From an uncultured Chthoniobacterales bacterium (lineage in GTDB: Bacteria; Verrucomicrobiota; Verrucomicrobiia; Chthoniobacterales; UBA10450), in the NCBI GenBank assembly GCA_902805675.1, contig CADCTA010000107.1:1-64000 (forward strand): DNA of 64,000 nucleotides, read 5' to 3'. Below the pieces are notes generated by a model. That model was not told where the DNA came from. It ran no database searches and saw nothing but the letters and a program-made list of their open reading frames with translations. Position numbers and translations under genes: made by a program. This document shows, piece by piece, positions 26,500-30,441 of this stretch. The first letter of the stretch is position 1; the number at the start of each line of letters is the position of its first letter.

Positions 26500-26526
26500 T
26501 TGACAGACACGCAACTCGTGTAAATA
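26500..26526 (+). promoter_or_regulatory. Putative upstream 16S promoter P1
   Basis: A consensus -35 TTGACA (26500-26505) is followed, after 15-16 bp, by an AT-rich TAAATAT (26521-26527) as the -10. It lies 128 bp after the queG stop and about 690 bp before the 16S gene. The -10 is not perfect. Nothing else is recognised in the 26373-26499 gap. Confidence 0.5.
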
Positions 26527-26564
26527 TAGGGCTCCGCTGAAACGCGCAGGTTGCACCACCGAAA

Positions 26565-26584
26565 ATCTTCAAAAAGTTGAAGAT
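26565..26584. promoter_or_regulatory. Palindromic operator-like site A upstream of 16S promoter P2
   Basis: Perfect palindrome of arms ATCTTCAA and TTGAAGAT around AAAG. It ends exactly 6 bp before the P2 -35. An identical 20-bp site precedes P3 at the same distance. The protein that may bind is unknown. Confidence 0.7.
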
Positions 26585-26590
26585 GTAGTG

Positions 26591-26618
26591 TTGACCACTG
26601 AGGGAGGCACACTATGTT
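26591..26618 (+). promoter_or_regulatory. Putative 16S promoter P2
   Basis: TTGACC (26591-26596), a 16-bp spacer and TATGTT (26613-26618). It lies in copy A of the tandem module. Confidence 0.6.
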
Positions 26619-26697
26619 GTTCGTCCCGCGACACAGCGGACCTGCTAATAAGCGGGTTGTTCTCCCTGGCTCGTGACGAGCCGGCGGTCAGCAAAGA

Positions 26698-26717
26698 ATC
26701 TTCAAAAAGTTGAAGAT
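26698..26717. promoter_or_regulatory. Palindromic operator-like site B upstream of 16S promoter P3
   Basis: Identical in sequence to site A and again 6 bp from the -35 hexamer. The offset between sites is 133 bp. Confidence 0.7.
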
Positions 26718-26723
26718 TGTTGG

Positions 26724-26751
26724 TTGACGGCCTTGCGAGACGCGCTAAGAT
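26724..26751 (+). promoter_or_regulatory. Putative 16S promoter P3
   Basis: TTGACG (26724-26729), a 16-bp spacer and TAAGAT (26746-26751). It is the promoter nearest the gene, about 440 bp upstream of the mature 16S end. Confidence 0.6.
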
Positions 26752-26877
26752 GCTCGTCCCGCACCACGGGATCCGACAGCAAGTCGGATGTTCTTCCCTT
26801 CTGGCTCACTGGCGAGCCGATCGTTTGAAAACTTCAACGGTTGGTTTGTACATGTGCGGAAGATGGAGCGGAACGGT

Positions 26878-26889
26878 TGATCTTTGACA
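26878..26889 (+). promoter_or_regulatory. boxA-like antitermination site in the 16S leader
   Basis: TGATCTTTGACA resembles the rrn boxA (TGCTCTTTAACA), the NusB/S10-binding RNA site, and sits in the leader 309 bp before the 16S gene, as boxA does in other rRNA leaders. Confidence 0.6.
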
Positions 26890-26963
26890 GTGCAATTCTG
26901 GATTTCGTCACACGACACAAGACGAACGAAATCAGAAGGTGGAAGTAGATAGTCAGCGAAGAT

Positions 26964-26974: not shown

Positions 26975-27197
26975 TTATACGTCGAGTTTCTTTGACACTA
27001 AAACTTTGCCGGTCTCACGATCGGTAATTTAATTTGAAAAAGATCGGACGAACACCGCGAAGCGAACGTGGAACTGCAGCAATAGCTGCGGCGACAGTAG
27101 CTGAGCGGTTTAGAATGGTCAGATTCACGTCGGTGCTTTAGCGAGCACTGACACAAACTTTGTCCGGAGGTGAGCAATCACCCACCGGCTCCAAATT

Positions 27198-28767
<1,570 letters not shown>

Positions 28768-28928
28768 ATTCAATCACCTTCCCTGCCCGATGAGCTTCGG
28801 CTCTGAGGAAAAGGAATCAGTGGTTTGAATAGGTCGACGGCTAACCCTTCGCTCTTTCGAGAGCGATGACATGCCGTGAAGACCTCGACAACGAAAGAAG
28901 TCGAGGCCGAAGAGACACGAAACGGTAG

Positions 28929-28939
28929 CGCACAATTCA
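28929..28939 (+). other. 3' arm of the putative 16S processing stem
   Basis: CGCACAATTCA, complementary to 26964-26974. A second local hairpin, CCTCGAC/GTCGAGG, lies at 28883-28906. Confidence 0.5.
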
Positions 28940-28965
28940 GTTTTCGTTTATTTGCTGACAAGTTT

Positions 28966-29002
28966 AAAAAATGCCGGACGGCTGATGCTGTCCGGCATTT
29001 TT
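28966..29002 (+). terminator. Intrinsic terminator after the 16S gene
   Basis: ATGCCGGAC (28971-28979) pairs with GTCCGGCAT (28990-28998), with a T-run to 29002. The preceding A-run extends the stem and makes it usable from the opposite side as well, where the KTSC operon converges. It ends the 16S transcript before any 23S. The following 29003-29270 holds no gene I can support. Confidence 0.85.
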
Positions 29003-29270
29003 GTTGTACCGATCGCTCAACGCTCCGGACGTCGCGGTTAGCAGGCGCCAAACGCCCCGGGCCTACTTGCCTGCCCGCAAGTCGCCACCGGAGTTTGCAG
29101 AAGATGCCCACGCACCTCTACCGATGCGCGAGTCGCGCTGCTGCATCCCCGAGATTTGATCTTCCATCATGCCAGCTCGCGCCGCTCCATTTCTCGCGCA
29201 CCTGAAGCGGCGGCGCGCGAGACGCCGTGCGCGATGCGGCTCGCGCCGAGCACCACAAAATTCAGTGGAC

Positions 29271-29561
29271 TTACTGCTCGTCTTCATCCGTCTGGTTCGT
29301 TGCACCTCGACCGGGCGCCGTTCCAGCGGGCGATCGTGCCGCCCCCGGCGACGATCGCGCGGATCGCGCGCGCGTGGCGCTCCGCTTCGCCTCCTGCTGT
29401 TGCTTCACCGTCGGCGGCGGTGCGGGACGCGGATGTTTGGCACGGTAAAACATGGTGCAAAGTCCCAGGACGAACGCCCCGATTACACACGCTGCTGCAC
29501 GCTTTTCTTCGGGCGTGAGCACGAATACTTGTCGCCGCGACAGCTTTCGGCCGCTGCTCAT
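29271..29561 (-). CDS. Small single-span membrane protein of unknown function
   Basis: The 96 residues begin with a basic head, then LTPEEKRAAACVIGAFVLGLC as a probable membrane span, then a Pro/Arg-rich tail with an acidic end (NQTDEDEQ). The head resembles the N-terminal segment of some ComEA-type proteins, but no helix-hairpin-helix domain follows. It starts in a 4-bp ATGA overlap with the KTSC gene, which is the best sign it is translated. Confidence 0.5.
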   Translation of the reverse strand: MSSGRKLSRRQVFVLTPEEKRAAACVIGAFVLGLCTMFYRAKHPRPAPPPTVKQQQEAKRSATRARSARSSPGAARSPAGTAPGRGATNQTDEDEQ

Positions 29562-29962
29562 CGTTTCCGCCGAGGTCGCACAAAGACCGACTTGTATTTT
29601 CCCTTTACGAACCGGTTGTAGAATCCGGCTTTAGATTCCGCGGCCAGCAGATCGCGATGAACCGCCGCCGGCACGTCGAAGTACCGGTAGGTCCCACCGC
29701 GCTTAAACTCTACTTCCAACGCGCGCAGGCGCCTGCTGTAGCCGACAGCCGCCAGCGCACGTGACTCCACTGGCTGTCGCCGTATGCGAGAAACGATTCC
29801 AGCTGGACTGCCCGGCTCTGCGGCCGCGCCCGGAGGAACCAGCGTAAACACCAGCAGCGCGGCTACGATCACCGCAATAACCAACCGGCGCGGTCCACGA
29901 GCAACGCAGCCGGACGCGGAGACAAGCGCAGCGTTGCATGTAGGCGATGTTCCTGGGTGCAA
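29558..29962 (-). CDS. KTSC domain protein with N-terminal membrane or signal segment
   Basis: The C-terminal 70 residues carry a KTSC domain (ESRALAAVGYSRRLRALEVEF, then GGTYRYFDVPAAVHRDLL and GFYNRFVKGKYKS), a small domain of unknown biochemistry often paired with nucleic-acid proteins. An Ala/Val-rich hydrophobic stretch precedes it (IAVIVAALLVFTLVPPGAAA), probably a signal peptide. The frame opens at a TTG (29962); the real start may be a few codons later. Confidence 0.65.
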   Translation of the reverse strand: MHPGTSPTCNAALVSASGCVARGPRRLVIAVIVAALLVFTLVPPGAAAEPGSPAGIVSRIRRQPVESRALAAVGYSRRLRALEVEFKRGGTYRYFDVPAAVHRDLLAAESKAGFYNRFVKGKYKSVFVRPRRKR

Positions 29963-30110
29963 GGTGCAGTGCCTTCCACTGGTGTACTACGGAAACGGCG
30001 AGCCGAAGTTCGCGAAAACCTTTCGCGGGTGAACATCGCGCCGCGGGTGAATTGACGTGCCCGGAGCGTTTGCAATCTCGGAGCGGCAACCTAGAGTCGA
30101 CGTTCACTGC

Positions 30111-30183
30111 GGGGGCATAGCTCAGTTGGTAGAGCGCCAGCTTTGCAAGCTGGATGTCAGGGGTTCGAACCCCCTTGCCTCCA
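30111..30183 (+). tRNA. tRNA-Ala (UGC)
   Basis: Full cloverleaf: acceptor GGGGGCA/TGCCTCC with one G-U, D arm GCTC..GAGC, anticodon loop TTTGCAA in stem CCAGC/GCTGG, and T arm AGGGG-TTCGAAC-CCCCT. The discriminator is A; 3' CCA is not encoded beyond the acceptor end. Confidence 0.95.
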
Positions 30184-30367
30184 TATCGCGACCCGGCCTC
30201 CCCGTTCGGCTCGCCAGTCGCAGGGTGTCGTTCGGGTCCCGCGCGGACGGCGCGGCTACCGAGCACCAGCGGCTACCATTGCGCGCAGTCGCAAAATCCT
30301 AGAAAACCACCTTGCGCCTCCCCCACTCCGAATCCAAAATCCCTGTCTGCGCATTGTCGCGCACCGC

Positions 30368-30441
30368 GGGCCTGTAGCTCAGTTGGTTAGAGCATGCGCT
30401 TGATAAGCGCAGGGTCACTGGTTCGAGCCCAGTCAGGCCCA
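30368..30441 (+). tRNA. tRNA-Ile (GAU)
   Basis: Acceptor GGGCCTG/CAGGCCC, D arm GCTC..GAGC, anticodon loop TTGATAA in stem TGCGC/GCGCA, and T arm ACTGG-TTCGAGC-CCAGT. CCA is not encoded. It lies 184 bp after tRNA-Ala and 6 bp before the convergent Mut7-C stop. Confidence 0.95.

Follow-up and report, generated by a model that had tools for sequence, protein, structure and literature searches.

Two promoter modules upstream of the 16S rRNA gene

The 16S rRNA gene of an uncultured Chthoniobacterales bacterium is preceded by two identical inverted repeats, each just upstream of a putative promoter, which raises the question of what such a repeat does at an rRNA promoter. The locus was studied in a window of 64,000 nucleotides (contig CADCTA010000107.1 of assembly GCA_902805675.1). 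Judged from the sequences compared here, these palindromes are probably the local version of an order-wide mirror-image repeat, and would represent an unusual docking site for RNA polymerase rather than the mark of one regulator. The features of the region are as follows.

26500..26527, + strand: P1, putative promoter TTGACA-16-AAATAT, read from the sequence, with a weak -10 and counterparts in genus-mates
26565..26584, + strand: inverted repeat 1, ATCTTCAA-AAAG-TTGAAGAT, in the UP-element position of P2
26591..26618, + strand: P2, putative promoter; TTGACC (-35) at 26591-26596, 16-bp spacer, TATGTT (-10) at 26613-26618
26626..26682, + strand: P2 leader; hairpins 1 to 3 predicted, TGTTCTCC separating hairpins 2 and 3
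26698..26717, + strand: inverted repeat 2, ATCTTCAA-AAAG-TTGAAGAT, in the UP-element position of P3
26724..26751, + strand: P3, putative promoter; TTGACG (-35) at 26724-26729, 16-bp spacer, TAAGAT (-10) at 26746-26751
26758..26818, + strand: P3 leader; hairpin 1 at 26758-26770, hairpin 2 at 26772-26788, TGTTCTTC at 26789-26796, hairpin 3 at 26803-26818 (parts defined from the family alignment and folds)
26879..26890, + strand: boxA-like GATCTTTGACAG, part of the 16S leader and conserved in almost every leader of the family
27198..28757, + strand: 16S rRNA gene (Rfam RF00177, 1518 bits)

As the first-pass annotation had described, the two repeats start 133 bp apart, each stands 6 bp before a TTGAC-type -35 that is followed after 16 bp by a -10, and both leaders fold into hairpins. 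What had been called a perfect 20-bp palindrome is in fact a pair of perfect 8-bp arms around an asymmetric 4-nt centre, AAAG; the arms of the second repeat reach 9 bp when the flanking A/T is included. The copies of the 133-bp module are identical in 96 of 139 aligned columns, and an assembly artefact (a duplicated contig end) was rejected on this low identity. Of the two promoters, P3 resembles those of relatives more than P2 does, and only this genome has both, so that P2 seems to be a tandem copy specific to this lineage. Tandem duplication of the module of promoter plus leader gave P2 and P3 and accounts for the two identical repeats.

By itself such an inverted repeat is unremarkable, because 30 with perfect 8-bp arms (loops 0-8) were present in the whole window. 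Its preservation and its place are less ordinary. A run of at least 20 identical columns arose in 239 of 20,000 column shuffles of the module alignment (p ~0.01, 1.2%), and this rarity indicates that the repeat has been preserved better than the remainder of the module. Shuffling the 40-bp stretch that precedes each -35 did not produce an equal of the observed repeat in 400 trials. The exact repeat had no third site in the 3.5-Mb genome; with up to three mismatches allowed, one further site with two mismatches was found, and others with three. As a background, 464 kb of the same genome was scanned and contained TTGACN-16-TAnnnT at just 6 sites; an A+T-rich upstream region was present at the two rRNA sites and at none of the others. 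This control is therefore uninformative on repeats at other strong promoters. The repeat was also considered as an intrinsic terminator, which was rejected on its A+T-rich stem (predicted -6.1 kcal/mol) and the absence of a T-run after the right arm.

A candidate UP-type element

If transcription is assumed to start 7-8 nt after the -10, each repeat would span about -61 to -42, and its A-rich centre would lie near -51. On the same assumed start site, the window repeats and the A+T profile of the family agree with an UP element, which is A+T-rich DNA at about -60 to -40 beside the -35 of a strong sigma70-type promoter. According to PMC7822876, rrnB P1 of E. coli has its UP element at -60 to -40, and the alpha-CTDs of RNA polymerase are placed there at -54 to -48, where the A/T minor groove is narrow. 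In the 22 promoters of the family outside the genus, the A+T content had maxima at -31 to -25, -20 to -15 and -10 to -3 before TTGAC, steps of about 10-11 bp as for the helically phased A-tracts of UP elements. Moreover, inverted repeats of an imperfect kind make up the UP elements of the rrn P1 promoters in E. coli (GAAAATTA-TTT-TAAATTTC; AAAAAT-GC-ATTTTT), singly non-significant against shuffles (p 0.09-0.20).

The position, to which the upstream repeat excess described below is confined, the helical A+T steps and the imperfect repeats of E. coli together suggest that the repeat is a palindromic version of the UP element to which the alpha-CTDs bind at strong 16S promoters. This is the best explanation that we can offer, and we hold it tentatively. 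The UP-type element would in this order be built as an inverted repeat, with the alpha-CTDs as its presumed ligand, at promoters that are taken to be active and whose transcription it would raise. The right arm stands at a fixed distance from the -35 within the genus and is the half that other genera share; the left arm mirrors it, with letters that differ by lineage. The occurrence of different arms in one genome, described below, fits a ligand that reads A/T shape rather than a fixed sequence. The alpha-CTDs are arranged head-to-tail at rrnB P1 (PMC7822876), so mirror symmetry is not demanded by their binding, and the retention of exact symmetry is left unexplained by the UP-type reading alone.

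Symmetry recurs across the order with differing arms

The sample of the order comprised 213 genomes, about three quarters of them without a 16S match, and yielded 86 promoters, or 75 after near-duplicates and P1-type sites were dropped, from eight families, several of which have few members. Most of these promoters read TTGAC-16-TAnnnT, and the 16-bp spacing and TAnnnT of P2 are the same in nearly all listed promoters. At this position many had inverted repeats whose sequences are quite different, for instance GAAAAT-CAA-ATTTTC, GAAAGT-GGAA-ACTTTC, CGGAAA-CTCAAAT-TTTCCG, TTGAAA-GAAA-TTTCAA, TTTTGGAA-TTTTT-TTCCAAAA and GGCTTTTT-N11-AAAAAGCC. Arms were 5-9 bp and loops 2 to 14 long, and in other families several different arm sequences occurred within a single genome. 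It is symmetry and position that recur across the order, not one sequence.

The mean repeat score of the 75 promoters, from lists curated by eye for TTGAC and with scores designed after examples had been seen, was 12.60. Shuffles scored 8.67, column permutation 8.78 and chimeras 10.20 (sd 0.30). As the chimeras join left and right promoter halves from different genomes and thereby retain the A/T bias that UP elements show by position, composition does not account for all of the symmetry. The excess over chimeras had a z of 7.9 overall, 6.0 without the own genus, 5.4 for the other families together (3.7 in f4, 2.8 in f6) and 5.4 when chimeras were made within families. In the own family outside the genus it was non-significant in this wider test (z 0.9), and a first inverted-repeat test (8-bp arms, loops of at most 10, own family and 23S) had given no clear excess outside the genus. 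With A+T-matched segments of the same loci as control z was 7.3, and G-C pairs were in excess over chimeras (z 3.7). On the upstream side, the positional profile showed a strong excess in a single region, with centres between -20 and -11 before TTGAC (z 9.5, 8.6); three leader peaks were also present.

Between orthologous promoters, in examples whose choice and orthology were picked by eye, the arms differ in a compensatory manner: CAGGC/GCCTG versus CAGGA/TCCTG (G055 -603, G161 -577), GAAAAT/ATTTTC versus GAAAGT/ACTTTC (G048 -379, G055 -380) and, at 23S promoters, GCAAAA/TTTTGC versus CGAAAA/TTTTCG (G070, G023). Symmetry beyond positional composition and compensatory changes, the two properties of a structure-coded element, were thus both found. 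Symmetry was highest in the downstream promoters of arrays (mean 15.17 versus 9.88 in chimeras, z 8.9; 6.6 without the own genus) and lower in first or only promoters (11.39 versus 10.40, z 2.7), with p 0.03 when paired within 14 genomes, in a split that is exploratory and confounded with family. Four or five tandem rRNA promoter modules were seen before the 16S gene at four loci (L092, L094, L101 and L120; families f4 and f6).

Both the symmetry above positional A/T bias, with its excess of G-C pairs, and the stronger repeats downstream in arrays, which an UP element does not predict, count against the UP-type reading. A possible but doubtful proposal is that the rRNA promoters of the order carry a cis-element recognised not by its letters but by its mirror symmetry, be it as RNA hairpin, as DNA structure or through a dimer that reads shape; its arms would change freely but together, and it would be concentrated in tandem arrays.

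Among the forms that such an element could take, an RNA hairpin is suggested by the much stronger symmetry of downstream promoters: a repeat transcribed from the upstream promoter would fold in the RNA and affect pausing, processing or read-through. The transcript of P2 would include the second repeat, loop length is free, and GAAA is the commonest loop (4 of the repeats scored). However, mismatches in the stems showed no preference for G-T over A-C (3 each), the predicted folding of the + strand (-6.28 kcal/mol) did not differ significantly from that of the - strand (-5.45 kcal/mol, p 0.16), and the stems are A+T-rich and weak, as the energy of the window repeat given above illustrates. Repeats were also present at single promoters for which no upstream promoter was recognised (G035, G212). 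With the confounding of the first/downstream split added to this, the hairpin is unlikely.

A DNA-level reader of symmetry and A+T-rich shape, either a low-specificity dimer acting in a Fis-like manner or an extruded hairpin or cruciform that sets rRNA transcription, accords with the absence of a significant strand preference. It also accords with symmetry combined with free sequence, with the G-C pair excess and the within-family chimera result, and with the compensatory pairs between orthologues; the rRNA promoters of B. subtilis are described as sensitive to supercoiling in an excerpt of PMC7824091. The wide range of loop lengths does not favour it. Furthermore, 5-9 bp is a short arm length for a stable cruciform, and the sites of Fis in E. 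coli lie further upstream than the centre found here at about -51, which makes this form rather unlikely as well.

Conservation within the genus and the family

The family was sampled with 83 genomes, 24 of which had a 16S match and 19 a DNA match to the promoter region. In the two genus-mates with a readable promoter the repeat was retained as a single copy, AATCTTCAA-AAG-TTGAAGATT in G001 and AATCTTCA-AAAAA-TGAAGATT in G006. In both, TGAAGAT stands 6 bp before TTGAC and a P1-like site lies upstream (TTGACG-16-AAAGAT in G001, TTGACG-16-AAAAGT in G006). The arms ATCTTCA/TGAAGAT were unchanged in four copies from three species (G000, G001 and G006), whose 16-bp promoter spacers are 53-62% identical. 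Arms unchanged beside a diverged spacer are probably constrained within the genus.

The search of relatives for the arms, proposed in the first-pass annotation, succeeded in these genus-mates and failed elsewhere in the family: the repeat sequence was absent from the 22 other 16S promoters (genus excluded) and from 6 23S promoters. The right half alone, AAAAAGTTGAAGATTTTGYGTTGAC, was found in G012, of another genus, and in an upstream promoter of G071. When 84,980 species were scanned for the repeat with TTGAC after it, there were 9 scattered matches, none of them verrucomicrobial as judged by title.

The unchanged arms, together with the identity of both window copies, would suit an operator of one sequence-specific dimeric rRNA regulator, at least in the genus. 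The gap between ATCTTCA and TGAAGAT, however, is 5 or 6 bp within the genus, so the fixed half-site spacing expected of the operator of a dimeric regulator was not found there; the sequence is absent outside the genus and has no further exact site in the genome. As single genomes of other families use several different arms, one sequence-specific regulator is improbable. Of the earlier interpretation, the promoter-like character, the UP-element position and the non-random symmetry stand; the single group-wide dimeric regulator is not supported.

Mutation rather than selection might likewise have produced the symmetry, if template switching during replication copied arm onto arm in a rough A/T-rich inverted repeat. 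Hairpins are reported to arise and to be maintained by template switching (in an excerpt of PMC8794818), which is also reported to homogenise the arms of inverted repeats (in an excerpt of PMC8604942). The left arm does look like a mirror of the better conserved right arm, and positional composition alone lifts the scores, from 8.67 in shuffles to 10.20 in chimeras. Yet the arms remained unchanged across three species while their flanks diverged, and repeats stand at one position in many families, which renders this origin improbable. A reading of the palindrome as just the UP element of one genus, symmetric by chance, is weakened by the repeats with other arms in other families and by the chimera test.

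The leader and the organisation of the rRNA genes

At the start of the transcript (window 26755-26820) a leader common to the family was found. It consists of two hairpins whose stems differ, then TGTTCTTC, which is nearly invariant, and GGCTC..GAGCC as the third hairpin. Only the third was recovered by RNAalifold from a simple alignment of family leaders; the first two were seen by eye and in single folds. No Rfam family matched the leader when the window was scanned at gathering thresholds. The 23S leaders of relatives start with a similar hairpin and GGTTCT.

Further downstream, the boxA-like GATCTTTGACAG, which we take to resemble E. coli boxA, is followed after 108 bp by the similar TCTTTGACACTAAAACTTTG (26989-27008), with a likeness of 75% over 20 nt; GGTTCTTTGAYAT precedes the 23S rRNA gene in relatives. 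Genes for tRNA-Ala and tRNA-Ile were observed 1.35 kb downstream of the 16S gene (window 28757-30441). No 23S gene was present in the window or the assembly. In the relatives that have both genes (G011, G012, G018, G023 and G070), 16S and 23S were located on different contigs. This suggests that the rRNA genes are unlinked, a known phenomenon according to an excerpt of PMC7825169, where it is cited.

Comparison with known rRNA promoters

UP elements and tandem rRNA promoters are already known. The open-licence literature searched, as far as its excerpts go, describes neither an inverted-repeat architecture at the rRNA promoters of this group nor their promoter build. The recurring arrangement of these promoters leads to a directly testable model of that build, in which an inverted repeat is followed by TTGAC, 16 bp and TAnnnT and, in this family, by two hairpins, TGTTCTTC and a third hairpin. 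It also raises the general question of whether symmetry, which is seen, if weakly, even in the UP elements of E. coli, has a function. If symmetry itself is read, this would be a new way to mark rRNA promoters.

The Fis sites upstream of E. coli rrn P1 resemble the repeat in being symmetric and loosely specified, with an A+T-rich core, at rRNA promoters. They are several and lie further upstream, whereas here a single site centred at about -51 adjoins the -35. A likeness is also seen to the UP element of E. coli rrn P1, an imperfect repeat that likewise lies just upstream of the -35 of an rRNA promoter, A+T-rich and with phased A-tracts. In the candidate UP elements of the order studied here, the symmetry is often exact and extends to G-C pairs, and each promoter has a sequence of its own. 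Finally, the presence of two or more promoters before the 16S gene recalls the tandem P1 and P2 of the E. coli rrn operons, but the arrays in other families of this order extend to four or five modules (G048, G055, G139 and G161), most of which have a repeat at the same place.
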